Shown here: piece by piece, positions 31,720-46,642 of the stretch | Numbering within the stretch: position 1 is the stretch's first letter | How the letters are laid out: each line of letters starts with the position of its first letter | Source: an uncultured Clostridia bacterium | GTDB taxonomy: Bacteria; Bacillota; Clostridia; UMGS1883 | DNA: 64,000 nucleotides | Reading direction: 5' to 3' | Assembly: GCA_947626145.1 (NCBI GenBank) | Contig: CANQRB010000008.1 | Location: 1 to 64,000 of the forward strand | Notes under the pieces: generated by a model | The model's input: only the letters and a program-made list of their open reading frames with translations | Database searches by the model: none | Told to the model about the DNA's origin: nothing | Translations under genes and position numbers: made by a program

Positions 31720-34700
31720 TTAATCAGTGCTTGCTCCCACATAACAGTTATCTCCCAACGGCCTCATTGCGTCAGTAAAATCCCATATAAATATCTTTAA
31801 ATATGATATATCTCTGTCGCAAGTGTCAACATGAACTTTGCATACCTCAGCATCTATATCATCTGCCGTGATATCTTTAGTTTTTATTGAGATCATTTCA
31901 CCGTTGTCATTATAGGCTGCAACTATTAATTTTGCGGGCAATATATCTCTTGCTGTTACATATATAGCCATAAAGCCCACTTCTAAATCAAAATTACCAT
32001 TCACAGGAATTTCATTATAAGGAAGTCCTTCAGCGGATTTCATAGTTATATCACTAAAATAATACCCCATGCTTAAATCTCTGTCAGTTTCATCATATTC
32101 TGATTCCGTCACGGTAATCAAGCCTTGAGTAGTAACACCGTTTACATCATTAAGGTAGTAGTCGCATAAATCGTCGTCTTCGTAACTCAGCGTCAGCGGC
32201 AGCTTCTCTCCGATTTCCGCAGTATCCTTCACCATAAACTCTACAACGAACAGCTCCCCGTCGTCATACATATTGTCCGCACTGTTCCAATACGCCGTTA
32301 TGTATTCCAATTCCTCGCCGTCTGTTTCCTCCGTCAGATTTGTCGTGAAGCTTCCATCGAGCAGCAACTCTCCCTTTGTTACCGAAATCGGAGTGAGATA
32401 GTTCCTGTCATAGTCCAACCGGAAGTTGAAGCCCGCTATTCCTTCATTATCACTTATCGTCACAGGCACTGTTACTATCTCTCCGGCTCCGGCTTCTATC
32501 TCTTCCATAGCGAGCTTTACCTCGTTCGTTGACATGAGGCTCACTCCTTCGGCTTCGCTCATTTCATATCCCGCAAGTATCTGCGACAGCCTTACGCCGT
32601 CCTTCGCATTTACCTTTGTATCGTTGAATACATTTGCCGCCGTCAACTGGTTATCGTTAAGATCAATCTTCCACTTCGCTATGTATCTCGACAACAACAG
32701 TCCATCCTGTGAGTCTACTATCCTGTCCTGATTTACGTCGCCCTTTATTACATCCGCTACCGTTATCAAATTGTCGATAATGTTGGGCATCACATCGTTG
32801 AAATCTTGATCTGTTACATCTCCCTTTTCATAGTCAAGCGTTACCGCATATACCCCGTCAGGAACTTCTCCGGACACGTCAAAGGTGATGTTGAACAGTT
32901 CGCCGTTCTCTGTCATGTTTTGAGAGTCTCCCCAGTAAACGGCTACCTCCTCCAGCTCGGAGGCCGGTATTCCTTGCTCAAGGTTCGATGTGAAGGTTCC
33001 TGAGCTGAGAAGCTTTCCCCTGGTTATGGTTTTGGGAGTCAGCGCAGACTTATCATATCTTACCGTAAAGGCAAAGCCTGCTATGCCGGGGTTCTCGCTT
33101 ATCGTCACAGGCAAGGTCACAAGTCCGCCGGCCTTTGGCGCTCCTGCCCCGATCTCAATTGTTCCTTCTACGATTTCCGGCACGTTTTCCTCCGAATAAC
33201 TGTCGCCACATATCTTACAGGTATAGGTCTTGTATCCGGGGCCGTCGGGAGTGGTTTCCGTCTCCTTTGTCAGCTCATATTCATGCGCTGTCGTATCAGT
33301 CGTTCTGGTTTCCCGTTCTCCACACTTCTTGCAGGTGCGGTACTCTATCCCTTCATCACGACAGTTGCCGGCCTTTTCAACCTGCCAATTCTCGTCAAAT
33401 TCATGACCTGTGGCCTCGATAACCGTTTCGTCGGCATTCTTCCCGCAGACCGTACATACATGAGCCTTCATGCCGTCTTCAATACAACCAGCATTTTTTA
33501 TTACCGTCCATTCACCGTCGTAACTGTGTCCCTTGGCGGGAATGGGCGCTTTTTCCTCAGCCTGATGACATTGGCTGCATATCCTGTGTTGTTCCCCTTC
33601 TGTCTCACAGGTGGCTTCCTTTGTGATTATCCAATCTCCGTATGTGTGAACGCACTCTTTTGGACTTACAACTACATGACATACAGCTTTTTTTCCGTTG
33701 ACAGTACTTGCATATATATCCGCCTCACCGACTCCCGTTGCCGTTACGGTTCCATTTGACACTGATGCTATCGCACTGTTTGATGATGTCCATGTCAAGG
33801 ACTTGTTAGTGCTGTTGTCAGGAGTTACGACCGCATTAAGCATTACGGTTTCCCCAGTTTTCATGGTTAATGCAGTTTTGTCGAGAACTATTCCGGTCGG
33901 GGGTATTTCAAGCACTGCAGCTTTATCAAATGTACTTGTCAAGTATCTGTCGGAGTTATCCCGAACTTGTATGTAGTACTTATATGTTTTGCCAGTTACC
34001 AAATTATTATCCACAAAATATGTATTGTTTGTGGTCGCATATGTTTCATAATCGTTCTTGCTGTCCGACCATTTCTTCACAATATACGTCAGACCGATTT
34101 CCGTCATCGGCTTTTCCCAGCTTACCTGCATAGATGTGGCGCTTAAGGGAGTAAGCGCGATTCCCTTTGTTATCTTCGGAGCGCCATAGAATGTGCTTGT
34201 TCCTCCAACCGTACTGAATGAACCATCTTCATTTTGGTTCAAAATCTTTATTTGATAAGCATATATCGTTCCCGGCGTACCGGTCTTATCTACATAAGTC
34301 AAATCCGTTGTTCTTCCAACCTCTTTAAACCCACTTTCGTTCGGGGCTTTACGTACAATACTGTATGTATATTTGCCATCGCCTTTGGCTTCCTTCCATT
34401 TCTTAATTTTGATATGGGTCACATTTTCATTGTCTCTATTTGTTTCAGGGCTTGAGAGACGGGTAAACTTTGTTTTGGTCTTTGAATACTTAGATTTGAT
34501 CTGCTTATTCTTTCGATTGCCGTCAGGGCCGAGTTCTCCTTCTCGTATTGCTCTTACCCGATAATTGTACTTTGTCGCTTCATTCAGTCCAGTATGAGTA
34601 AAACTAGTACCGGTTAGATTCTTTGCCAATGATTTCCAATCTTTGTCTGTAGCTTTATGGTATTCTATCTCATATTTACTGGCACCGGAAACCTTTTTCC

Positions 34701-35841
34701 ACGAAATCGTGAGTTGAGTTTCACTGTCACAGGTAATCGTTGGCTGTTCTGGAGGTGATGGCATCGTATAAGTCATGTAAGTTGCTGACCTATCGGAATC
34801 GCCTTTTTTGTTTACCGCATAAAGCCGAAAGTAGTATGTAGAACCGGGAGTCAAGTTTTTGAAGGTGTACGAAGTGCTGGTTGTCGTTTTATCCGAATAG
34901 TCCTTTACATCTTTTCTTCTTAGGCCGACTCTGTAACTTGTCGCACCGTTGACGGCTTTCCACTTGACAGTTATCTGAGTGTCACTGTCTGGATCGGCTG
35001 AGGATATCGTTGGCTTGGCTGGCTTTGTTGCGTCTTTAAGCTGGGTCGGTCTAACAATATTCGGATATGACGCACCCTCATAATATAAAGTCTTTCCTCC
35101 AGAAGGCTTTGATATTGTCTTTTTTCTCGCTACAGGAGGGGTTTGTTCACAAATTACAATATCTTTATCTGTAATATCATAAACCCATATAACATGGCTT
35201 CTACCAGAGTTTACAAGAGCATCCCCAGGTTTTATTTCTGATACATTACCTGTAAATGATTTTGTATATTTAGAATTAATAAGTTTTATGCAACTATCAT
35301 GTACGGGGCTATCTCCACTCATAAGACTTCCGCCAAAGACCTCGCTAACAAAAGTGGCACAACACGACCCATAAACAGGACCAGTTCTTGTTTCACTAAC
35401 CGATTTACAGTATTTTGTAGTAGAATAGTTTGAGGAAACCTTATTTTTATATTGTTTTAAAGATAAGAGACTGTCCGATACAACTTCATCAGTAAACAAT
35501 GTGTATGGCATACCTTTTACAGTAGACCCTTTTTTAAAAGTTGTTGTTCCGTTGTACTTATTACCGTTCCACGTCTTAATATCTTTTGCCGGCGTCCATT
35601 TGTAATTTACAATGGCGTCTGCCCGAGCCCTCATAGACGATAAATCAGTTGGGTAGTCGGAAGCGGACATTAAATTAACCGTTGCTTCATCTGTATCAAT
35701 ATTTTCATCTATATATGTCCAATCAATTTCTTCATATATAGTAGATTCCTCAAATGATTCATCATCATTGGCTAAGACAATAGTGGGACTAACTGAAAAA
35801 ATAACGGATAGTAATAACATTATGCTTACAATTTTTTTCAT
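31720..35841 (-). CDS. Secreted CHAP/NlpC-like hydrolase with FN3, Big2, zinc-ribbon-like and cohesin-dockerin-cohesin modules (protein A)
   Basis: 1373 aa. Signal peptide 1-24 (MKKIVSIMLLLSVIFS ... VLA). Residues about 110-265 form a cysteine-peptidase/amidase-like domain with GSCCATFVSEVFGG (Cys160/161) and GRSHVIWVYD (His216), the CHAP/NlpC pattern of peptidoglycan hydrolases. Then four FN3-like domains, a Big2 domain (PTGIVLDKTALTMKTGE), four CxxC repeat units, cohesin 1 (IEIGAGAPKAGGLVTLPVTIS), a type I dockerin (GDVNQDRIVDSQDG and a second half), cohesin 2 and a ~110-aa C-terminal domain. Residues 270-1239 are nearly identical to protein C. No LPXTG, SLH or CW-binding repeat is visible. 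Cell-wall cutting and self-assembly are inferred from domains. Confidence 0.85.
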   Translation of the reverse strand: MKKIVSIMLLLSVIFSVSPTIVLANDDESFEESTIYEEIDWTYIDENIDTDEATVNLMSASDYPTDLSSMRARADAIVNYKWTPAKDIKTWNGNKYNGTTTFKKGSTVKGMPYTLFTDEVVSDSLLSLKQYKNKVSSNYSTTKYCKSVSETRTGPVYGSCCATFVSEVFGGSLMSGDSPVHDSCIKLINSKYTKSFTGNVSEIKPGDALVNSGRSHVIWVYDITDKDIVICEQTPPVARKKTISKPSGGKTLYYEGASYPNIVRPTQLKDATKPAKPTISSADPDSDTQITVKWKAVNGATSYRVGLRRKDVKDYSDKTTTSTSYTFKNLTPGSTYYFRLYAVNKKGDSDRSATYMTYTMPSPPEQPTITCDSETQLTISWKKVSGASKYEIEYHKATDKDWKSLAKNLTGTSFTHTGLNEATKYNYRVRAIREGELGPDGNRKNKQIKSKYSKTKTKFTRLSSPETNRDNENVTHIKIKKWKEAKGDGKYTYSIVRKAPNESGFKEVGRTTDLTYVDKTGTPGTIYAYQIKILNQNEDGSFSTVGGTSTFYGAPKITKGIALTPLSATSMQVSWEKPMTEIGLTYIVKKWSDSKNDYETYATTNNTYFVDNNLVTGKTYKYYIQVRDNSDRYLTSTFDKAAVLEIPPTGIVLDKTALTMKTGETVMLNAVVTPDNSTNKSLTWTSSNSAIASVSNGTVTATGVGEADIYASTVNGKKAVCHVVVSPKECVHTYGDWIITKEATCETEGEQHRICSQCHQAEEKAPIPAKGHSYDGEWTVIKNAGCIEDGMKAHVCTVCGKNADETVIEATGHEFDENWQVEKAGNCRDEGIEYRTCKKCGERETRTTDTTAHEYELTKETETTPDGPGYKTYTCKICGDSYSEENVPEIVEGTIEIGAGAPKAGGLVTLPVTISENPGIAGFAFTVRYDKSALTPKTITRGKLLSSGTFTSNLEQGIPASELEEVAVYWGDSQNMTENGELFNITFDVSGEVPDGVYAVTLDYEKGDVTDQDFNDVMPNIIDNLITVADVIKGDVNQDRIVDSQDGLLLSRYIAKWKIDLNDNQLTAANVFNDTKVNAKDGVRLSQILAGYEMSEAEGVSLMSTNEVKLAMEEIEAGAGEIVTVPVTISDNEGIAGFNFRLDYDRNYLTPISVTKGELLLDGSFTTNLTEETDGEELEYITAYWNSADNMYDDGELFVVEFMVKDTAEIGEKLPLTLSYEDDDLCDYYLNDVNGVTTQGLITVTESEYDETDRDLSMGYYFSDITMKSAEGLPYNEIPVNGNFDLEVGFMAIYVTARDILPAKLIVAAYNDNGEMISIKTKDITADDIDAEVCKVHVDTCDRDISYLKIFIWDFTDAMRPLGDNCYVGASTD
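32123..35031 (-). repeat. 2.9-kb duplicated segment, copy in protein A
   Basis: Aligns without a single gap to 39661-42569 (constant offset 7538). The ends coincide with module borders: after cohesin 2 on one side and before FN3-1 on the other. Most of it differs only by isolated bases; 33.70-34.46 kb is clearly more diverged. Confidence 0.9.
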
Positions 35842-35857: not shown

Positions 35858-38800
35858 TTATTTCAAAGTATAATTTTCCGCTAATGGCTTCTCGGTGTTT
35901 ACAGATTCCCACAAAAACGCTTTAATTTTTGATACAGTCAAGTCGCACTTTTCCACATAAATTTGGCATCTACTATTATCGTCGGCTTTAACAGTGTAAA
36001 TTTTAATAAGCTTGTCATCTTCATCGTATGTTGCAACGATTACTTCAGCGCTTCCAACATATTCTTTTAATCTGCTTATTTCAACATTAACGTCAAAGTC
36101 GCCATTTTGTGGAATGGAGTCGCATTGAATTCCATTTTGTGCGATTGTCACTTCAGAAATTTCAAATGGATAGGGAGACTTCTTAACCACCTCAACAAGA
36201 CCATCTGCGCTTTTGATATCCACATCCATTATATTACTTCTATCAACCTTACACATATCATCGTTTGTATACTCCAAGCTTATTGGAACCACCGAACCAG
36301 CCTTAAGATTCTCGTTAATCTTAAATCTAACTGTAAATAAAACTCCATTTCCGACTATATTGCCGTTACTTGCCCAGCATACGTTGACGTTTTCAATATC
36401 TGAAATGATCAAATTCTTTTGCTGGATATTAGATATCGCACCACCTTCGTACAAATCTCCGTCTACAAAGGCGAGAGGAGTTAAACTATTATTGTCGTAA
36501 ATTAACTTAAGATTAAATCCAGAAAGTCCGGGGTTGTTTTCAATTAATACAGGAACGTCAATTTCTTCGCCAGGAACTCCTTTGACGTTTGCGACGTATA
36601 TTCTCCCTTGAGTACTTTCGTCGGCCAAAAGAGAGACTTCATTACGCGATTGAACGGTCGCATCATTTACATCTACATACCCCGCCAAAAGCTGAGCAAG
36701 TCTTGTTCCGTCCTTTGGAGTTATTTTTCCATCAGCAAACAGATCCGCAGCCTTCTGATGATAATCGCTCCACGGCAGATCAAGCCATCCGACAATTTTT
36801 CGTGATAAATATGTGCTGTCATGACTGTCAACAACCATGTCCAAGTTTGCATCGCCTTTTATCACGTTTATTTTGGTGGTAACAATGCCCTCAATAACAC
36901 TCGGCAAAATTTCATGTCCTTCACAGTCAATAATAACTGTTCGTACATACGTCTGATCTATATCGTCGTATGACACGGAAATCGCATAGTCGCCTTCCGG
37001 CGCATTGCTGCTAACATCAAATGTAACGGTGAAAAGCTCGGCTTCGCGGTCATCAACATCTTTTTCCAAATCTCTATGCTCCCATACGGCTGTGACCGCA
37101 TCCAAGCTCGATGCCGAAATACTGCCGGCCATGACTTGATCTAAATTTGAGGTGAGTTTACCACCTTTATTTCTTAGAGTTTCACCTACAGTAATTGACT
37201 TAGGCGTAAATATTTCCTTATCATAATTTACTTTTAAATTAAACCTCACAAATCCGGGATTATCAACCAACTTTGCAGTAACGGTCGCTATACCGCCAAC
37301 TATTGCGGTTGTACTTTCAACAGCAATAACGCCATTATATATCCTTTCTCTATAATATTCGTTGTATGCTTTCATACATTCTTTTCTGCTGCACCGGTAT
37401 ATTCTTTCCCCTGATTTAAGCGGCGTAGGCGGAATATCATTTACCAAAATAAAATCATGCTCTATCATTTCTGTTTCTTGAGTGTCTTTATATTTGCATA
37501 CAGAGCAAGTCCTATATTTCAAACCTTTTTCAGTACATGTGGCCTCTTTTTCCACCTGCCAATCTCCATAGCTGTGATCCGTTTTTCCTATAGTCATTCT
37601 GTCCTTTACAGTACCGCAGGATGTACAGATATGTGCTTTTTCGCCCTCTTGTGTGCAAGTAGGCTTTTTTGTTTCAATCCAATCTACAGAGTACTTATGT
37701 CCGGTAGCAGGAATTTTAACAGTTTCAGTTTCCCCGCATTCGCTGCAAACTCTGTGTTGGCTGCCTTCGTTTTCGCACGTTGGCGCTGTATCTATAACCC
37801 ATCCATTAGGATAGCTATGTTTTATTTCAGACCATTGCGCATATAAAGTCTGGTTATCAGTAGTGGAAAAAATCATTGCATCTTCAATTTTTGTTCCGCC
37901 TGTTTCCGCTGTGAACCAGCCATCAAACTTATAATTTTCCCTCAAGGGTATAGGCAATGACCCATATGGCTCATTAAATGTTACGGATTTGCTTGACTGT
38001 TCAACTTCGCCGCCATTTGGTACAAATGTTACTGTATATGAATTTGGTTCAAAATACGCCGTATACGTTGACGGTTCAGTAACATTAACAGTATAACGTG
38101 ACGCGAAGATTCCGCCGCTCCAATTTTTAAAATGATAGCCGGGATTAGACTGCGCGCTTATTTCTATATTAGACCCATACAAATACGTTCCACTGCCAAA
38201 CACAGTACCTTTGTTATTATCTTCAGTTTCCACGTTCACTTGATATGAATTTGTATGGAACTTTAAAATAACGGATGTGTTGTCATATATTACTCCAGAT
38301 GCACTGCTGGCATACGTTCCATCATATGAATGTCCATATAGAGGTTTAATATCTTTAATCTCATATGACGAACCGCATGTATGAGATGCATAATAATCCG
38401 TGACATCATCTGCCACAAGTTTGCCATTAACGTAAACGTCTGCCGTTCCGAAGCCGTTTATGGCGCCACTATATACGTCGTCCAGCATTCCATTCAAATC
38501 AAGAACAAATGATTTATATCTATATGTGACCCACTCGGTAATATTAGAAATATTATTTCCGCTTGGATAACTGTAAGATTCTAAATTGTCATTTTTTCTG
38601 TAATAATAGGTGTAAACCTTACTCCTTGTGCGGTAACGATATTGCGTTTTTTTAGTTTCAAACGGATCGTCTTGCCAAACGGAATGGTAACTTGTGCCAT
38701 TTTTATCATAATTTCCGTTTTTGTCGTGATACAATTTGTATGACTGTGGATTTGATGTAGTGGATGATTTTCCCAATTTGTCCTTAATTGCATATTTGTA

Positions 38801-39190
38801 TTTATTGGGATAACTTGATGATTTTTTGTAACTGCCCGTTGAAGCATTCTTGGATGAAGCGTACCTATAATAGTTATACTTGTCCGTAACCTTTCTTGTT
38901 TCCACTTGGCGGGACTCTGTTTCGGTCACCTTTGTATCGCTCCAGGAACTCCAAGAACTCCAAGGGCCCCATACCCATTTTGTATCATATTTCTCCCAGC
39001 CGGGCAGTGAAGATTCGCTGGAAGTTTTATAGGACGTCAGTGTATATGTCCATTTTCTAGAGGTAACCTCTGCGCAAGCGGGAAGCTGCGAAGCTAATAT
39101 CCATTCGTCTGCGTGTGCAGGAGTACTCAAAGTAAAAGTGGATACCATAACACTAATTACCGTAATTAAGGATAATAATTTCTTCTTCAT
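35858..39190 (-). CDS. Secreted cohesin-dockerin-cohesin protein with aromatic WSxWS-type and InlB B-repeat modules (protein B)
   Basis: 1110 aa. Signal peptide 1-27 (MKKKLLSLITVISVMVST ... AHA). Residues 70-230 are very rich in Trp, Tyr, Ser and Arg (WGPWSSWSSWSDTKV, then YRYRTRSKVYTYYY), a thrombospondin-like pattern. Next a Gly-rich beta region, a Listeria-Bacteroides B-repeat (PNGGEVEQSSKSVTF ... FDGWFTAETGGTKI ... LYAQW), three CxxC units as in proteins A and C, cohesin 1, a dockerin (GDANLDMVVDSHDSTYLSRK and DGKITPKDGTRLAQLLAGY), cohesin 2, and the shared C-terminal domain. No catalytic domain: a scaffold or adhesin is likely. It starts 95 bp after protein C and ends 17 bp before protein A. 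Confidence 0.8.
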   Translation of the reverse strand: MKKKLLSLITVISVMVSTFTLSTPAHADEWILASQLPACAEVTSRKWTYTLTSYKTSSESSLPGWEKYDTKWVWGPWSSWSSWSDTKVTETESRQVETRKVTDKYNYYRYASSKNASTGSYKKSSSYPNKYKYAIKDKLGKSSTTSNPQSYKLYHDKNGNYDKNGTSYHSVWQDDPFETKKTQYRYRTRSKVYTYYYRKNDNLESYSYPSGNNISNITEWVTYRYKSFVLDLNGMLDDVYSGAINGFGTADVYVNGKLVADDVTDYYASHTCGSSYEIKDIKPLYGHSYDGTYASSASGVIYDNTSVILKFHTNSYQVNVETEDNNKGTVFGSGTYLYGSNIEISAQSNPGYHFKNWSGGIFASRYTVNVTEPSTYTAYFEPNSYTVTFVPNGGEVEQSSKSVTFNEPYGSLPIPLRENYKFDGWFTAETGGTKIEDAMIFSTTDNQTLYAQWSEIKHSYPNGWVIDTAPTCENEGSQHRVCSECGETETVKIPATGHKYSVDWIETKKPTCTQEGEKAHICTSCGTVKDRMTIGKTDHSYGDWQVEKEATCTEKGLKYRTCSVCKYKDTQETEMIEHDFILVNDIPPTPLKSGERIYRCSRKECMKAYNEYYRERIYNGVIAVESTTAIVGGIATVTAKLVDNPGFVRFNLKVNYDKEIFTPKSITVGETLRNKGGKLTSNLDQVMAGSISASSLDAVTAVWEHRDLEKDVDDREAELFTVTFDVSSNAPEGDYAISVSYDDIDQTYVRTVIIDCEGHEILPSVIEGIVTTKINVIKGDANLDMVVDSHDSTYLSRKIVGWLDLPWSDYHQKAADLFADGKITPKDGTRLAQLLAGYVDVNDATVQSRNEVSLLADESTQGRIYVANVKGVPGEEIDVPVLIENNPGLSGFNLKLIYDNNSLTPLAFVDGDLYEGGAISNIQQKNLIISDIENVNVCWASNGNIVGNGVLFTVRFKINENLKAGSVVPISLEYTNDDMCKVDRSNIMDVDIKSADGLVEVVKKSPYPFEISEVTIAQNGIQCDSIPQNGDFDVNVEISRLKEYVGSAEVIVATYDEDDKLIKIYTVKADDNSRCQIYVEKCDLTVSKIKAFLWESVNTEKPLAENYTLK

Positions 39191-39284: not shown

Positions 39285-42200
39285 TTAATCAGTGATCGAA
39301 ATTCCTTTCGCTAAAGGCGTTATATTATCTCCGTCGCCCCAGACGAATACCTTGACCTCACCAATCTTTTCTGTGCATTGCGGTATATATACGCTACACA
39401 TACCTTCTTCAAATATTTCTTCTGTAACATTGTTATGCTTAACTGTTGCAAGTGAACCATCTTCTCCATAAACAGCTACGATAACATTTGCCGGAGGAAC
39501 ATTTTCGTTTGTTTTCAGCAATTCTACTATAACATAGAAGTCTCCGTCCTCTGGAATACTTTCACATACATTATCATCAGCCGCACACAAATAAGCATTA
39601 TTGATGTAATACGGATTTGTGGTATCTATAACTTCATTTGTATCTACAACCATTACTGCACCTTGAGTCGTAACACCGCTTACATCATTAAGGTAGTAGT
39701 CGCATAAATCATCGTCTTCGTAACTCAGCGTCAACGGCAGCTTCTCTCCGACTTCCGCAGTATCCTTCACCATAAACTCTACAACGAACAGCTCCCCGTC
39801 GTCATACATATTGTCCGCACTGTTCCAGTACGCCGTTATGTATTCCAATTCCTCGCCGTCTGTTTCCTCCGTCAGATTTGTCGTGAAGCTTCCATCGAGC
39901 AGCAACTCTCCCTTTGTTACCGAAATCGGAGTGAGATAGTTCCTGTCATAGTCCAACCGGAAGTTGAAGCCCGCTATTCCTTCATTATCACTTATCGTCA
40001 CAGGCACTGTTACTATCTCTCCGGCTCCGGCTTCTATCTCTTCCATAGCGAGCTTTACCTCGTTCGTTGACATGAGGCTCACTCCTTCGGCTTCGCTCAT
40101 TTCATATCCCGCAAGTATCTGCGACAGCCTTACGCCGTCCTTCGCATTTACCTTTGTATCGTTGAATACATTTGCCGCCGTCAACTGGTTATCGTTAAGA
40201 TCAATCTTCCACTTCGCTATGTATCTCGACAACAACAGTCCATCCTGTGAGTCTACTATCCTGTCCTGATTTACGTCGCCCTTTATTACATCCGCTACCG
40301 TTATCAAATTGTCGATAATGTTGGGCATCACATCGTTGAAATCTTGATCTGTTACATCTCCCTTTTCATAGTCAAGCGTTACCGCATATACCCCGTCAGG
40401 AACTTCTCCGGACACGTCAAAGGTGATGTTGAACAGTTCGCCGTTCTCTGTCATGTTTTGAGAGTCTCCCCAGTAAACGGCTACCTCCTCCAGCTCGGAG
40501 GCCGGTATTCCTTGCTCAAGGTTCGATGTGAAGGTTCCTGAGCTGAGAAGCTTTCCCCTGGTTATGGTTTTGGGAGTCAGCGCAGACTTATCATATCTTA
40601 CCGTAAAGGCAAAGCCTGCTATGCCGGGGTTCTCGCTTATCGTCACAGGCAAGGTCACAAGTCCGCCGGCCTTTGGCGCTCCTGCCCCGATCTCAATTGT
40701 TCCTTCTACGATTTCCGGCACGTTTTCCTCCGAATAACTGTCGCCACATATCTTACAGGTATAGGTCTTGTATCCGGGGCCGTCGGGAGTGGTTTCCGTC
40801 TCCTTTGTCAGCTCATATTCATGCGCTGTCGTATCAGTCGTTCTGGTTTCCCGTTCTCCACACTTCTTGCAGGTGCGGTACTCTATCCCTTCATCACGAC
40901 AGTTGCCGGCCTTTTCAACCTGCCAATTCTCGTCAAATTCATGACCTGTGGCCTCGATAACCGTTTCGTCGGCATTCTTCCCGCAGACCGTACATACATG
41001 AGCCTTCATGCCGTCTTCAATACAACCAGCATTTTTTATTACCGTCCATTCACCGTCGTAACTGTGTCCCTTGGCGGGAATGGGCGCTTTTTCCTCAGCC
41101 TGATGACATTGGCTGCATATCCTGTGTTGTTCCCCTTCTGTCTCACAGGTGGCTTCCTTTGTGATTATCCAATCTCCGTATGTGTGAACGCACTCTTTTG
41201 GACTTACAACTACATGACATACAGCTTTTTTCCCGTTGACAGCACTTGCATATATATCCGCCTCACCGACTCCCGTTGCCGTTACGGTTCCATTTGACAC
41301 TGATGCTATCGCACCGTTTGATGATGTCCATGTCAATGACTTGTTAGTGCTGTTGTCGGGAGTTACGACCGCATTAAGCATTACGGTTTCCCCGGTTTTC
41401 ATGGTTAATGCAGTTTTGTCAAGAACTATTCCGGTCGGTGGTATTTCAAGCACCGCAGACTTACCAAATGTACTGGTCAGGTATTTACCGGCACTATCCC
41501 GAACTTGTATATAGTATCTATATGTTCCGCCGGTTGCTAAATTATTATCCACAAAATATGTATTGTTTGTGGTCGCATATGGTTCATAATCGTTCTTGCT
41601 GTCCGACCATTTCTGTACAGTATACGTCAAGCCGGTTTCTGTTATGGGCTTTTCCCAGCTTATTTGCATAGATGTGGCGTTTAAGGGAGTAAGTACGATC
41701 TCCTTTGTTATTTTGGGTCCGGCATAGAATGTACTTGTTCCGCCAACCGTACTGAACGAGCCGTCGGAATTTTGGTTCAATATCTTTATTTGATAAGCAT
41801 AAATTGTTCCGGGCGTGCCTGTTGTATCTGTATATGTGCGGGCTGTCGTTCTACCCACTTCTTTAAAGCCGCCCTCATTCGGAGCCTTACGCACTATGCT
41901 GTATGTATATTTACCATCACCCTTTGCCGCTGACCATTCTTTGATAACTACATGGTTTACGTTATTGTTATCAACCGTGTTGCCGGGACTGGGGAGACGG
42001 GTAAACTTTGTTTTAGTCTTTGAATACTTAGATTTGATCTGCTTATTCTTTCGATTGCCGTCAGGGCCGAGTTCTCCTTCTCGTATTGCTCTTACCCGAT
42101 AATTGTACTTTGTCGCTTCATTCAGTCCAGTATGAGTAAAACTAGTACCGGTTAGATTCTTTGCCAATGATTTCCAATCTTTGTCTGTAGCTTTATGGTA

Positions 42201-43112
42201 TTCTATCTCATATTTACTGGCACCGGAAACCTTTTTCCACGAAATCGTGAGTTGAGTTTCACTGTCACAGGTAATCGTTGGCTGTTCTGGAGGTGATGGC
42301 ATCGTATAAGTCATGTAAGTTGCTGACCTATCGGAATCGCCTTTTTTGTTTACCGCATAAAGCCGAAAGTAGTATGTAGAACCGGGAGTCAAGTTTTTGA
42401 AGGTGTACGAAGTGCTGGTTGTCGTTTTATCCGAATAGTCCTTTACATCTTTTCTTCTTAGGCCGACTCTGTAACTTGTCGCACCGTTGACGGCTTTCCA
42501 CTTGACCGTTATCTGAGTGTCACTGTCTGGATCGGCTGAGGATATCGTTGGCTTGGCTGGCTTTGTTGCCGCATTTTTGCTCGGTAAAAATTTATGTGGA
42601 TCTAAATTAGGACTCTTATTACTTCCATATGTTCTATTTTTATCTCTAACTTCATAGTGAAGATGACAGCCTGTTGCATTCCCAGAATCACCAACATAAC
42701 CTATCAACTGACCTGCTGTAACTTTATCTTTTGCTTTTACAACATATTTCTCCATGTGACAATAATAAATGTAAACTGTTTCAGAATTTACTTTACATTT
42801 TATTATAACATGATTACCGTAACTAGTTGTCATACTTTTTACGGAATATACAGTACCATCATGAGATGCATATATTGGGGTATTTCTAGGAGCAGAAATA
42901 TCTGTTCCCGAATGATAATTTCCATTTGAGTATTTATGCCAATTCTTTAGGTCAGTTCCACCATTTCCTCCTACAGGCCAGACAGGACTGGATGCCCCAG
43001 CAGCAACATGAACTAACCCAAAGCATAGTAAAAATACCACAAGAAAAGAAAAAATTGATTTACGTTTCTGTAATTGCTCTCCCTTTAATTCCTTTTTTGA
43101 ATTTTTACACAT
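39285..43112 (-). CDS. Secreted M23 endopeptidase-like protein with FN3, Big2, zinc-ribbon-like and cohesin-dockerin-cohesin modules (protein C)
   Basis: 1275 aa from ATG 43112 (MCKNSKKELKGEQLQ), GAGGGGG upstream. Signal/anchor helix about 18-43. Residues 45-175 are an M23/LytM domain: YHSGTDISAPRNTPIYA (His and Asp metal ligands), YGNHVIIKC and GCHLHYEVRD (His-x-His), so all zinc ligands of a peptidoglycan endopeptidase are present. From residue 181 to 1150 the sequence is nearly identical to protein A (four FN3-like domains, Big2, CxxC units, cohesin, dockerin, cohesin). The last 125 residues diverge but keep the shared pattern ending in FVWGDGDNITPLAKG. It likely trims cell wall while docking to cohesins on its own or sister proteins; docking is inferred. 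Confidence 0.85.
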   Translation of the reverse strand: MCKNSKKELKGEQLQKRKSIFSFLVVFLLCFGLVHVAAGASSPVWPVGGNGGTDLKNWHKYSNGNYHSGTDISAPRNTPIYASHDGTVYSVKSMTTSYGNHVIIKCKVNSETVYIYYCHMEKYVVKAKDKVTAGQLIGYVGDSGNATGCHLHYEVRDKNRTYGSNKSPNLDPHKFLPSKNAATKPAKPTISSADPDSDTQITVKWKAVNGATSYRVGLRRKDVKDYSDKTTTSTSYTFKNLTPGSTYYFRLYAVNKKGDSDRSATYMTYTMPSPPEQPTITCDSETQLTISWKKVSGASKYEIEYHKATDKDWKSLAKNLTGTSFTHTGLNEATKYNYRVRAIREGELGPDGNRKNKQIKSKYSKTKTKFTRLPSPGNTVDNNNVNHVVIKEWSAAKGDGKYTYSIVRKAPNEGGFKEVGRTTARTYTDTTGTPGTIYAYQIKILNQNSDGSFSTVGGTSTFYAGPKITKEIVLTPLNATSMQISWEKPITETGLTYTVQKWSDSKNDYEPYATTNNTYFVDNNLATGGTYRYYIQVRDSAGKYLTSTFGKSAVLEIPPTGIVLDKTALTMKTGETVMLNAVVTPDNSTNKSLTWTSSNGAIASVSNGTVTATGVGEADIYASAVNGKKAVCHVVVSPKECVHTYGDWIITKEATCETEGEQHRICSQCHQAEEKAPIPAKGHSYDGEWTVIKNAGCIEDGMKAHVCTVCGKNADETVIEATGHEFDENWQVEKAGNCRDEGIEYRTCKKCGERETRTTDTTAHEYELTKETETTPDGPGYKTYTCKICGDSYSEENVPEIVEGTIEIGAGAPKAGGLVTLPVTISENPGIAGFAFTVRYDKSALTPKTITRGKLLSSGTFTSNLEQGIPASELEEVAVYWGDSQNMTENGELFNITFDVSGEVPDGVYAVTLDYEKGDVTDQDFNDVMPNIIDNLITVADVIKGDVNQDRIVDSQDGLLLSRYIAKWKIDLNDNQLTAANVFNDTKVNAKDGVRLSQILAGYEMSEAEGVSLMSTNEVKLAMEEIEAGAGEIVTVPVTISDNEGIAGFNFRLDYDRNYLTPISVTKGELLLDGSFTTNLTEETDGEELEYITAYWNSADNMYDDGELFVVEFMVKDTAEVGEKLPLTLSYEDDDLCDYYLNDVSGVTTQGAVMVVDTNEVIDTTNPYYINNAYLCAADDNVCESIPEDGDFYVIVELLKTNENVPPANVIVAVYGEDGSLATVKHNNVTEEIFEEGMCSVYIPQCTEKIGEVKVFVWGDGDNITPLAKGISITD
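39661..42569 (-). repeat. 2.9-kb duplicated segment, copy in protein C
   Basis: Partner of 32123-35031. The diverged stretch here is about 41.24-42.00 kb (Big2 end, FN3-4 and FN3-3), flanked by tracts that are almost identical, the mosaic expected from gene conversion. Confidence 0.9.
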
Positions 43113-43596
43113 GAAAAACAACCCCCTCATAACAATGTTGCTATACAATAGTAATAGTCTTTATCGGCCACAAAGAAGCTCTATCAAGGTCGATGGCCTT
43201 CTTAACATACTTCTCCCCAATCCTCATACTTATCTTCGAGGTTCAAATCATCATTTTTATAATCATCAGATTAATCTAAGTTACTTGAGCTTTAACACAC
43301 TCTTCTATTACGATATCTTAAATCTTAACCCTTTAGTCCAATATAACTATATGCTTTCACATACTTACATCGCAAACATATTTAATATTAAAAAATGTCA
43401 TTTTCTCAGCATTTTTTTGCTATACAACAAATGTCTGTATAATAAAATTTTCAGCGATAGGGAATATATTAGTGTAATTGATTACAACATAGTTCGCAAC
43501 TATACCATTGGCAATGCTTTATTTAGTTCTAAGCAGAGCGGCGACAATATGCTTTGATTGTCAGCCGCTCCGCAGCTTACCATGAATATATTGTGT
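43113..43596. other. AT-rich spacer upstream of protein C with a candidate promoter and hairpin
   Basis: No gene is supported. A minus-strand TTGTGG (43168-43173), 17 bp, TATTGT (43145-43150) could drive protein C. 43174-43535 is much richer in A+T than the neighbours. Hairpin 43536-43570 (GAGCGGC-GACAAT / ATTGTC-A-GCCGCTC) follows the stalk-protein gene and may terminate it weakly. Confidence 0.45.
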
Positions 43597-44262
43597 TTAC
43601 TCCACAATCATATCTGCAAGGCCAATACTCTCGTTTTCAGTCACAATTTTCAACTGCAACCCATAGTTTAACGGAATAGTAATATGTTCTGCTAACTGTT
43701 CTGGGTCAAGTGTCACAGTTTTTACAGTTTTGCCATCGACGATAAATGTTACCGTTTTTTCATAGCCAAGAGAATCTGTATGACCTATATCAAAGCTCAA
43801 GGAGTTATATCTGCCATCGAGGTTAAATAATGCATTTCCTCCCCAACCAAAGGTTATTCCGTTCGATCGCTTTTTGCCGTCCATTTCAAAGGTTCTGCCT
43901 TCTGAAGATGAATATACACTGCCACCTTCATATGGCGGACAAACATCCATCATCATTGTTTCGCCCGGAACCATCTTATCCCAAATGTATACACTCCTTG
44001 ATGCTCCGTCATACGTTACCTGTGCACCCATGGCTTGAGCCACGCCGCGAACGGGAAGATAGGTTGTTCCATTGTAAACAAACGGTTCAACGGTCGTTCC
44101 GTTGGCGTCCGTAAGGTCAGCGAGCGTGTTGTCGATGTACACCTTATAGTTGTCATAGGTCACATCAATATTTCGCTGACCGCTTGTGGCATAGGCCACC
44201 CCTCCTACCGCTATCAAAGCCGACATAACGCCGATAGCATAGCCCTTTACTGTTTTGTTCAT
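43597..44262 (-). CDS. Secreted copper-amine-oxidase-N-like stalk protein with NPCBM-like domain
   Basis: 221 aa. Signal peptide 1-26 (MNKTVKGYAIGVMSALIAVGGVAYA). Residues 30-95 match the copper amine oxidase N-terminal-like domain of Bacillota surface proteins (VYIDNTLADL, VEPFVYNGTTYLPVRGVAQAMG), which is not an enzyme but a stalk or substrate-binding module. Residues 110-221 (GGNALFNLDGRYNSLSFDIGH ... VTFIVDGKTVKTVTLD) resemble an NPCBM/NEW2 carbohydrate-binding fold. RBS AGGAGG before ATG 44262. A -10 TATAAT (44340-44345) is present but the -35 is poor. It is the first gene left of the inverted-repeat segment, so it would be the first gene hit by the promoter after inversion. Confidence 0.8.
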   Translation of the reverse strand: MNKTVKGYAIGVMSALIAVGGVAYATSGQRNIDVTYDNYKVYIDNTLADLTDANGTTVEPFVYNGTTYLPVRGVAQAMGAQVTYDGASRSVYIWDKMVPGETMMMDVCPPYEGGSVYSSSEGRTFEMDGKKRSNGITFGWGGNALFNLDGRYNSLSFDIGHTDSLGYEKTVTFIVDGKTVKTVTLDPEQLAEHITIPLNYGLQLKIVTENESIGLADMIVE

Positions 44263-44367: not shown

Positions 44368-44392
44368 CTGACCCAAAACTTAATCTTTTGGG
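44368..44392. repeat. Left 25-bp inverted repeat (IR-L) of the recombinase segment
   Basis: CTGACCCAAAACTTAATC then TTTTGGG; exact reverse complement of 45686-45710. The CCCAAAA/TTTTGGG ends make each copy a small palindrome. In the leftward direction IR-L is followed by sequence without a T-tract, so it would not terminate transcription. Confidence 0.9.
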
Positions 44393-44398
44393 AAAGTC

Positions 44399-44440
44399 GG
44401 CGCGGAATGTCTTTATTTAAGGCGTTCCGCGCCTTTTTTT
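44399..44440 (+). terminator. Terminator inside the inverted-repeat segment
   Basis: GGCGCGGAA (44399-44407) pairs with TTCCGCGCC (44425-44433), followed by T7 on the plus strand. It now blocks rightward transcription antisense to the recombinase; in an inverted segment it would block leftward read-through from the conjugation genes. Confidence 0.75.
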
Positions 44441-44446
44441 GACTGC

Positions 44447-45505
44447 TCAGTTTGACGGCGAATAGATTTCACTGAGCTTGTTCATCTGTGACCTTTTATG
44501 CTCGTCCAATGAATGAACATAGAGGTCGAGAGTAATCGCTACCGTGGAGTGGCCGAGGATTTCGCTGAGCGTCTTAAAGTCCATGCCCACCTCAAGGGCG
44601 CGGGTGGAAAAGGTGTGCCGAAGAGCGTGAAACTTGATGTCAGGGAGCTGTGCCTCCTCAAGCAGCCGCTTGAACTGACGGCGATAGGTGCGGACATTTA
44701 CATACCGGCCATTCGCCGACAGCACAAAGGCGCCGTCCCTGCGTTGATTTTTCAGCTTTTCCATAATAAACCCCGGTACAGGGATGGTTCGGAGTGAGGT
44801 TTTACTCTTTGGCGGCAGGATTTTCACGGTGCCGCCAACGCGGGCCTGCGTTCCGTTGACGTGAAGTACTGACTTTTCAAAGTCAATGTCGCTCCATTTA
44901 AGAGCGCAAAGCTCGCCGATGCGCAGGCCGGTGTACAGACATAGAAGAACCCCTATATCATTTTCCCGCGACAAGACCCTTTCCAACCGCTTCTGCTCGG
45001 TAAGCGTCAGTATGCTCACCTCGGTTTTGGCCTTTTTCGGGAGCTTGACCCGCGACCAAATATTCATGATCTGTCCGCGCTCCTCGGCAAAAATGAGAGC
45101 CGACTTCAGCACACAAAATATCACCTTAACGGTTGACGGCGAAAGTTTTAACGATGATACAAAAGCTTGCAGCGTTTGTGTTGTCAGCTTTTTCAGCCGC
45201 ACCTTGCCGAGCTTGGGGAGAATATAATTCCTTATGTGTCCCCTGTAAATCTGCCGCGTCGTCTCCTTGAGATTGCCGGCATTGTCAAGCCAAAAATCCA
45301 ACCACTGGCTCAGCGTATCGCTTGAGCCGGTGGGCTTTTTCTTTTTTACGGCCTTGTATTCGGCCAGCTTTTCCTTTACGTCCGTATAACTGCGGGCATA
45401 GACATAACCGTATATCGCCTTGCCGTTCTCGTTGCGGGTTCTGATATATCGCCCCTCGTACCGTCCATCTTTTCGTTTATATATGTTTTCTCCTCTTCTC
45501 GCCAT
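44447..45505 (-). CDS. Tyrosine recombinase (site-specific integrase/invertase)
   Basis: 352 aa, RBS AAGGGGAC before ATG 45505. N-terminal arm-binding motif RGENIYKRKDGRYEGRY, SAM-like core-binding domain (TLSQWLDFWLDNAG ... LTTQTLQAFVSSL), and a complete catalytic domain: TGLRIGELCALKW (Arg I), KSKTSLRTIPVP (beta-hairpin Lys), FHALRHTFST (HxxR), LGHSTVAITLDLYVH (His and nucleophilic Tyr). All catalytic residues are present, in contrast to its relative at 1-965. The gene lies entirely between perfect 25-bp inverted repeats and is bordered by a divergent promoter. It could be the ICE integrase, or an invertase acting on those repeats; the setting favours the second. Confidence 0.92.
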   Translation of the reverse strand: MARRGENIYKRKDGRYEGRYIRTRNENGKAIYGYVYARSYTDVKEKLAEYKAVKKKKPTGSSDTLSQWLDFWLDNAGNLKETTRQIYRGHIRNYILPKLGKVRLKKLTTQTLQAFVSSLKLSPSTVKVIFCVLKSALIFAEERGQIMNIWSRVKLPKKAKTEVSILTLTEQKRLERVLSRENDIGVLLCLYTGLRIGELCALKWSDIDFEKSVLHVNGTQARVGGTVKILPPKSKTSLRTIPVPGFIMEKLKNQRRDGAFVLSANGRYVNVRTYRRQFKRLLEEAQLPDIKFHALRHTFSTRALEVGMDFKTLSEILGHSTVAITLDLYVHSLDEHKRSQMNKLSEIYSPSN

Positions 45506-45582
45506 AGTTAAAGTCCCCTTTCTGACTGTGATTTTGACGGCGAATTTTTTCTTGAAAATTCGCCTAAAAGCTGTAGAATGGC

Positions 45583-45611
45583 TTGACAGCGCGTTATCAA
45601 AGTGATATAAT
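45583..45611 (+). promoter_or_regulatory. Perfect-consensus promoter pointing out of the segment
   Basis: TTGACA (45583-45588), 17 bp, TATAAT (45606-45611). It reads rightwards into IR-R, which together with the following T-tract forms a terminator. Confidence 0.8.
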
Positions 45612-45633
45612 CTATTATATAAAATTGTGTCAA
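45605..45633 (-). promoter_or_regulatory. Recombinase promoter sharing its -10 with the divergent promoter
   Basis: Minus strand TTGACA (45628-45633), 17 bp, TTATAT (45605-45610). The -10 boxes of the two opposite promoters overlap by five bases, so only one polymerase can bind at a time. Confidence 0.65.
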
Positions 45634-45717
45634 AATTTGCACGATTAACTAAAAATGCCGTAATAAAGCCATAAATTTTATCTGGCCCAAAAGATTAAGT
45701 TTTGGGTCAGGTTTTTT
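45618..45717 (+). ncRNA. Putative ~100-nt RNA upstream of the recombinase
   Basis: Begins after the consensus promoter and ends at a terminator made by IR-R plus T7 (45711-45717 region). Contains a stem ATTGTG (45624-45629) / CACGAT (45640-45645) matching the one beside the broken recombinase, and no convincing ORF. It may be a regulatory RNA or just the aborted product of an OFF-state promoter. Confidence 0.45.
45686..45710. repeat. Right 25-bp inverted repeat (IR-R) of the recombinase segment
   Basis: Exact reverse complement of IR-L (44368-44392). On the plus strand its CCCAAAA/TTTTGGG palindrome is followed by GTTTTTTT outside the repeat, making a terminator in the present orientation. 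Confidence 0.9.
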
Positions 45718-45775
45718 TATTCTCTCCACAAGCATAGAATCGGCCGTGCCATTAAGTGCGGCACGGCCGATTACT

Positions 45776-46642
45776 TTACCTAACCTTCCTCAAAATCTTA
45801 CCATACACCAGCTTCTTCTCCATGTTCAGCCGGGTTATCAGTACCTCCACACTGTCGCCGATCTTGAAATCACCGTCGTAGTGCATGGACTCATAAGAGC
45901 AAAGCACGTCCGTCATTTTATCGTACAGCCGACAGAACACGCCTCCGCCGTACTTCCCGACGATGGTAGCGATACGGATAGAGCCCTCGGGGTGACGGGT
46001 TTCAATGCCGTCAAAGGGGTGAGGCATAGTCTCCTTTACGGACAGCTTAAGGACGCCGGTATTCGCGTCAAACTGCTTGACAAGAGCTTTTTTCGTCTCT
46101 CCGGGGTGAATTACTTCCCGAAGGTCGGGAACCACGTTGTAGCTTATTTCCCTCTGAGGGAGTACAACGTCGTAGCCGAGGTATGACACCGTACACACGC
46201 CTCTGCCAACGGAAAGCACGTCCACATCCACGGTCTGCCCCTCGCGGATATGCCAGTTGTTGGCCTCTTGAAGCTTTTTTAGGGCAACTTTGCGCGAGGC
46301 CACGGCAAAGCCCGCCTCACGGTCAATGTAAGTTACCACATAGTTCACTCTTGCGCCGCACATAGAGTGGAGAACATGATAGCCGTAATCACGTTCATCA
46401 AGGAACACCTCATGTTCCGGAATGATAATTTTTATGCGGTATTTGATGACTATGAGGCATCTGACCTTACGCCGGGCGACCTCTCCGGCAATATTACCGA
46501 AGTCGTACATGTCCACGCCGGACACCTCGCCGCTTATAACGGATTGGCTCCGGTATGAAGCGTAAATTCCCTGCCATTCGTCGCGTTCTTCCGGCGTTAG
46601 GTCTTTGTCCAACTTAGATAAATTGAGTTCGTTGAATTCCAT
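45776..46642 (-). CDS. S1-domain RNA-binding protein of the conjugation module
   Basis: 288 aa. Repeated S1-like beta-barrel segments: SGEVSGVDMYDFGNIAGEVARRKVRCLIVIKYRIKIIIPEHEVF, VDVLSVGRGVCTVSYLGYDVVLPQREISY (plus VKQFDANTGVLKLSVKE), and IRIATIVGKYGGGVFCRLYDKMTDVLC. It resembles ribosomal protein S1 fragments that recur next to T4SS genes in Clostridia ICEs. Likely binds RNA and may adjust translation of element mRNAs; the exact job is unknown. Last gene of the leftward conjugation operon; ends 66 bp from IR-R. Confidence 0.75.
   Translation of the reverse strand: MEFNELNLSKLDKDLTPEERDEWQGIYASYRSQSVISGEVSGVDMYDFGNIAGEVARRKVRCLIVIKYRIKIIIPEHEVFLDERDYGYHVLHSMCGARVNYVVTYIDREAGFAVASRKVALKKLQEANNWHIREGQTVDVDVLSVGRGVCTVSYLGYDVVLPQREISYNVVPDLREVIHPGETKKALVKQFDANTGVLKLSVKETMPHPFDGIETRHPEGSIRIATIVGKYGGGVFCRLYDKMTDVLCSYESMHYDGDFKIGDSVEVLITRLNMEKKLVYGKILRKVR

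Follow-up and report, generated by a model that had tools for sequence, protein, structure and literature searches.

Like the locus described here, fim-type switches (FimB/FimE and the UpaE element) consist of a promoter that is flanked by short inverted repeats and turned round by a tyrosine recombinase. These promoter switches sit upstream of an adhesin, and the Fim recombinases are about 200 amino acids in length; to our knowledge, they have no arm domain and are encoded outside the invertible segment. The Hin/Gin-type segments, including the Salmonella flagellar H switch, also resemble the present locus, in that both the recombinase gene and the promoter being re-aimed lie inside the inverted segment (PMC5903667 names Hin as its example). 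However, Hin is a serine recombinase that acts at hix sites with a Fis enhancer, whereas the present locus has a tyrosine integrase, inverted core sites and paired arm-like repeats. The RecV switches of C. difficile (cwpV, flgB and cmrRST) have clostridial surface genes and tyrosine-recombinase inversion in common with it. A further likeness is that the OFF state of cwpV has been proposed to result from an intrinsic terminator whose action depends on orientation (PMC2784873), but the cwpV segment measures 195 bp, its promoter lies outside, and its recombinase is shared and acts in trans.

The integrases of Tn916/Tn1549-type conjugative transposons provide the closest solved structures and, it appears, a similar site plan of core plus arm sites. 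They recombine the ends of their element to excise or insert it, whereas the inverted cores of the present locus would flip the segment. Gut invertons of the kind found in PhaseFinder-type surveys likewise consist of promoters between inverted repeats beside surface genes, with integrases nearby (PMC11892184). That survey places invertases near invertons and calls them generally non-regulatable; an inverton that contains its own integrase and arm-like repeats was not seen in it. A literature search that covered few subscription papers also returned no description of an arm-plus-core integrase inside its own inverton.

The window analysed here comprises 64,000 nucleotides of contig CANQRB010000008.1 from an uncultured Clostridia bacterium (GCA_947626145.1), probably of rabbit-gut origin, as its closest named relatives suggest. 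Taken together, the anatomy of the element at 44368-45710, its intact and selected recombinase, conservation across a family and the natural inversion of homologous cassettes make it very likely that this is a self-contained, self-inverting promoter cassette (a phase switch), OFF at present and ON after inversion. The cassette is bounded by two inverted repeats of 25 nt, 100% complementary and separated by 1293 nt, which have the form of core-type recombination sites: the left arm (44368-44392, minus strand) and the right arm (45686-45710, plus strand) are exact inverted copies of one another. Each arm is a near-palindrome in which two half-sites, CCCAAAA and TTTTGGG, surround the asymmetric 7-nt core GATTAAG (at the left arm, TTTTGGG and CCCAAAA round the core). 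Near-palindromic half-sites round a core are the usual form of a tyrosine recombinase core site, and because the two cores are in inverted order, the geometry is one that gives inversion. About 2e-7 such repeat pairs within 3 kb would be expected by chance in 64 kb, and no further copies of the 25-bp repeat with three or fewer mismatches occur across the 2.44-Mb genome.

An outward-facing promoter lies inside the segment on the plus strand at 45583-45611, with TTGACA at 45583-45588 and TATAAT at 45606-45611, 17 nt apart. It is a 12/12 match, is conserved in the family, and reads out across the right repeat. Directly to the right of that repeat is GG-T7, and a 13-bp stem at 45680-45712 (-17.6 kcal/mol, z -4.7) is called as a terminator; the hairpin over the right site together with the T7 (45680-45719, plus strand) would thus terminate transcription from the promoter as it is oriented now (OFF). 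On the outer side of the left repeat there is no T-tract, and AGGAGG precedes the ATG at 44262. An earlier sequence-only reading had described an intact recombinase between exact 25-bp repeats, a perfect promoter facing the right repeat, a terminator formed by that repeat and the T7, and a left side with AGGAGG and no T-tract, and every one of these features was recovered where it had been placed. When the segment is flipped in silico, the -10 box comes to lie 204 nt upstream of the 44262 start codon (ATG), and no T-tract intervenes; since the T7 is found outside the right repeat only, the terminator logic of that reading fits.

In the proposed mechanism, the integrase would bind at both inverted 25-bp core sites, very probably also at paired direct repeats at the ends of its own gene, and recombination at the cores would invert the 1.34-kb segment with the integrase gene and the strong outward promoter. 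In the OFF state the promoter points right, the transcript would end at once on the right core hairpin and flanking T7, and the next gene on the right is convergent with the promoter. In the ON state the promoter would point left, the same hairpin would no longer be followed by a T-tract, and transcription would enter the 44262 secreted-protein gene and perhaps continue through the three large cohesin/dockerin genes beyond it. We infer the inversion of the window's own copy, the binding of arm sites, the activity of the terminator and the genes controlled. A second strong hairpin followed by T7 (44399-44433, plus strand; -28.8 kcal/mol, z -6.75) lies between the recombinase stop and the left site, and once inverted it would halt transcripts coming in from the right flank. 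A conserved 3' hairpin was rejected as a family trait, as such a hairpin beats its shuffles in just 15 of 62 family loci. Terminator asymmetry was rejected as well, the T-tract trend across the family being weak (p 0.06). Between the conjugation-type operon on the right and the cassette there is also a perfect 13-bp hairpin without a T-tract (45738-45772).

The recombinase gene (44447-45505, minus strand) is a complete ORF of 352 amino acids, with Pfam matches PF00589 and PF14659 and a predicted N-terminal beta-beta-beta-alpha domain. The catalytic R, H-x-x-R, H/W and Y of tyrosine recombinases are all found alongside PF00589, and R195, H293, R296, H319 and Y329 are invariant across relatives. 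The protein is under purifying selection, with a dN/dS of 0.07 against a 95%-identical copy. Its closest solved structures are 6emy and 6en2 (E 2e-19 by sequence, 9e-14 by fold) and its nearest solved relatives the Tn1549 and lambda integrases; full-length lambda Int aligns with it. The AlphaFold model (overall pLDDT 74.8, pTM 0.48) has the beta-beta-beta-alpha domain at the N-terminus; none of the Pfam arm-domain models matches the protein. From these comparisons and the model, we infer a two-site (core plus arm) integrase of the lambda/Tn1549 type. Three other classes were considered and set aside. For a RecV/FimB-type tyrosine DNA invertase, the protein falls far short of the corresponding NCBIfam models, scoring 29.3 and 19 bits where the cut-offs are 221 and 222; a Hin-type serine invertase is incompatible with the tyrosine recombinase domain seen by Pfam, and a Tn916/Tn1549 conjugative transposon would have directly repeated core ends for excision, whereas the cores here are mutually inverted.

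Candidate arm sites are present at both ends of the recombinase gene, where the 7-mers CCGTCAA and GCCGTCA recur. In the window, a GCCGTCA...AGTCA pair on the minus strand is found at the 5' end of the gene (45523-45541, 12-nt spacing), and a second pair, with 13-nt spacing, overlaps the stop at the 3' end (44440-44459, minus strand). Across 68 family loci, a GCCGTCA...GTCA pair occurs in 50 at the 5' end, spaced by 12 nt, and in 47 at the 3' end, mostly spaced by 12-13 nt, and in the sense strand only. Control counts were 0 in antisense, below 0.5 in shuffled sequences, and 1/67 and 0/64 outside the inverted repeats.

A homologue of the recombinase is present in all eight genomes of the genus that were examined. 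Spanning inverted repeats of 17-28 bp were found in six further genus cassettes, one each in G002, G003, G004 and G005 and two in G007. The first four have site sequences that differ, and both G007 copies have that of the window. No spanning inverted repeat surrounds the recombinase homologue in G001 and G006. Outward promoters, read by eye, occur in the repeat-bearing upstream sequences and in G001.

An alignment of the eight homologues was then used to scan species genomes, which gave a family set of 80 named loci; these are the best-scoring relatives, including a few near-duplicates, and not a random sample. They come mainly from Clostridia MAGs of rabbit, ruminant and chicken gut, with additional loci in Enterococcus. 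Against a null of mispaired flanks (median 10, 95th percentile 14), the inverted-repeat score equals or exceeds that percentile in 68 of the 80 loci; phage integrases used as controls score 8-11 and other integrases of the window's genome 8-12. The repeat sequences differ between loci, but their distances are conserved, in most loci about 190-280 nt on the upstream side and 45-110 nt on the downstream side. In a class-wide survey, 33 of 391 genomes contained a close homologue, and eight of nine further loci passed the inverted-repeat threshold. In the interval from the upstream repeat to the start of the gene, the top-scoring sigma-70-type sequence exceeds the 99th percentile of shuffled sequences in 42 of 68 loci on the outward strand, compared with 5 of 68 on the strand of the gene (Wilcoxon p 4e-11). 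By this test, the integrase appears to have no strong conserved promoter of its own. A scan of viral contigs returned only relatives at 36% identity or less, which served as controls, and the best relatives in plasmid and phage collections are about 37-43% identical.

The clearest natural inversion separates two Monoglobus MAGs from different rabbit samples (L143 and L144), which differ by a clean inversion of the cassette. Over 7813 bp to either side, their flanks are 99.9-99.96% identical and reversed relative to the cassette, and the cassettes themselves differ by one mismatch in 1384 bp; inverting that of L143 in silico yields L144 with six mismatches in 16,964 bp. The arms of this pair differ in their inner halves, and the inner half-sites move with the cassette as the outer half-sites stay with the flank, which places the crossover within the shared core ATAATATTTTA. 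Two loci from roe deer and sheep (L139 and L140) are also in opposite orientations, at about 78% identity, with recombinases each 54% identical to that of the window. Such inversions at the repeats, and an architecture kept in dozens of diverged cassettes, lend weight to the earlier proposal that the recombinase-bearing segment inverts and re-aims its promoter. The part of that proposal in which the recombinase flips with its own segment is not new as such, Hin being an earlier example (PMC5903667).

The search of relatives that the sequence-only reading had suggested gave no flipped counterpart of the window's own locus, and the G007 copy with a 100%-identical recombinase has the same orientation. 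A search of seven genus relatives with the left flank, for the opposite orientation, matched the cassette ends alone, apart from weak partial matches to the stalk gene (71-78%), and no flipped copy occurs among the E. raffinosus megaplasmids, where three strains agree in orientation. The single orientation of the window copy and its G007 twin, and the folding of the right repeat and T7 as a terminator, are what would be expected if the arrangement were fixed, with a resident integrase gene that does no flipping here and repeats that serve merely as terminator hairpins around it. This is very improbable: a pair of terminators would have no need to be identical over 25 nt or to have the same loop in inverted order, the arms match within each locus and differ between loci, and L143/L144 and L139/L140 are found in opposite orientations. 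In most related loci, the neighboring gene on the recombinase 3' side reads away. Related loci with the 5' neighbor reading toward the cassette and the 3' neighbor reading away outnumber the reverse by 24 to 6, and this excess of genes reading away on the recombinase 3' side suggests that switching may be rare or OFF-biased.

Two further observations on orientation were set aside. Contig ends near cassettes (eight in the first 500 nt on the 3' side, against 0-4 in each later bin) are too confounded to serve as a sign of mixed orientation. The loci L135 and L136 were not treated as a cassette pair, as they are mirror-image ends of one contig; both ends of this contig (CANQXR010000001.1, 131 kb) are mirror-image copies with the same cassette, which may be an assembly artefact or a true inverted duplication.

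The genome of the window (G000) contains a second cassette of this kind. Two of its contigs, C8 and C2, both end within one recombinase gene that is 59% identical to that of the window over the N-terminal part, and an intact orthologue (L147) aligns with the two halves placed one after the other, overlapping by 3 nt. The gene is therefore interrupted, and a repeated insertion element is the probable cause. The break falls at an LRH-T motif (C8:1-75, C2:1-73), and both contigs extend for about 70 nt into the insert before ending, as with a repeated mobile element. The sites of this cassette differ from those of the window (GTCCTTAAA-TACAAAG-TTTAAGGAC) and are likewise inverted. The same kind of perfect outward promoter can be read from the sequence of C8, and the flank on C2 is a Tad pilus operon reading away, with CpaE-, CpaF-, TadB- and TadC-like ORFs by inspection. 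Orthologous cassettes in L147 (1380-9350) and L006 (320-6000) have a common 5' flank, with kinase/FHA/PP2C genes and a Tad operon, respectively, on their 3' sides, which suggests a rearrangement at the 3' core site.

The second cassette and L147 have one flank in common and differ in the other, and a 95%-identical copy of the window's cassette occurs in unrelated surroundings in G007. Both facts would suit a very small mobile element in which the integrase and its repeats move together, the inverted repeats marking the termini and not serving as inversion sites. However, asymmetric cores in inverted order have the geometry of inversion (for excision, integrases use cores in direct repeat); moreover, natural inversion at the repeats is observed in homologous cassettes, the outward promoter is conserved, and no empty site was encountered on an unsystematic look. 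Such an element is accordingly considered unlikely, and the self-inverting promoter cassette is retained as the preferred reading. The two G007 cassettes (L102 on C16 and L103 on C50) have the same core sequence, 95% identical recombinases and unrelated flanks, and a common core within one genome makes large inversions between cassettes possible.

The left flank of the window's cassette is a cluster of secreted-protein genes. The first candidate target (43597-44262, minus strand) encodes a secreted protein of 221 amino acids with a copper amine oxidase N-terminal (stalk) domain and lies 105 nt from the left site. Possible further targets, all on the minus strand, are a secreted M23 peptidase-fn3-cohesin-dockerin protein (39285-43148), a secreted repeat/cohesin/dockerin protein (35858-39190) and a secreted fn3/cohesin/dockerin protein (31720-35841). 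A 450-nt gap with no predicted terminator lies on the way to these three genes, whose co-regulation with the 44262 gene is a possibility. The 31720-35841 and 39285-43148 proteins have a long near-identical stretch in common (fn3, Big_2, cohesin and dockerin) and could recombine.

To the right of the cassette, a conjugation-type operon with VirB4, VirD4 and RepA_N genes comes to its end; the last gene of the operon, with an S1 domain (45776-46642, minus strand), is convergent with the promoter in its present orientation. It is conceivable that the cassette inverts and that its main output is the recombinase itself or this operon, and not the 44262 cluster. The VirB4, VirD4 and RepA_N genes read towards the cassette, its orientation decides whether read-through from the operon would be sense to the integrase, and in L143/L144 one flank is also a T4SS operon, as read from the ORFs. 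Nevertheless, the promoter in its present state meets only a terminator and a convergent gene, the 44262 gene is the one read in sense after inversion, and relatives repeatedly have surface genes on that side, which together make a different main output improbable, if somewhat less so than a mobile element. A switch acting on the 44262 side thus stays the preferred reading.

Across the family, the nearest genes on the recombinase 3' side include those for SLH, BspA-type LRR, SpaA/LPXTG and cohesin proteins, as well as FtsK/EssC-like ATPases and LytTR and OmpR-type regulators. The neighbors of family cassettes are often surface genes, encoding SLH, BspA and LPXTG proteins, a Tad pilus operon or accessory Sec components.

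It is about an even chance that these cassettes represent an undescribed Bacillota family of plug-in phase switches, in which the attachment cores of a two-site integrase of the conjugative transposon type have become inverted, so that it would flip itself and an outward promoter and would have lost excision. Each lineage would have its own core sequence, and the cassettes would be placed before unrelated surface or secretion operons. The core-to-arm spacing is unequal at the two ends of the cassette (about 155 vs 60 nt), and this could make ON-to-OFF and OFF-to-ON switching differ, which would explain the prevailing OFF state. The system is compact, and it shows a credible route from a transfer integrase to a gene switch. 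Its signature (an integrase, flanking inverted cores, paired GCCGTCA arm-like repeats and an outward promoter) can flag phase-variable surface operons without read data, and is applicable to uncultured gut Clostridia and to Enterococcus. The putative targets, namely SLH/BspA proteins, LPXTG adhesins, Tad pili, accessory Sec systems and regulators, are surfaces met by the host, phage and the immune system.

In E. raffinosus, the cassette lies upstream of regulator and accessory Sec genes. On the pCX012922 megaplasmid (L214), it precedes a helix-turn-helix gene and secA2/secY2/asp1, and this host is culturable. Finally, the cassette in L157 (6500-8700) is flanked by two divergent, outward-reading genes with near-identical signal-peptide starts; inversion could choose between the two, which makes this locus a possible either-or switch.
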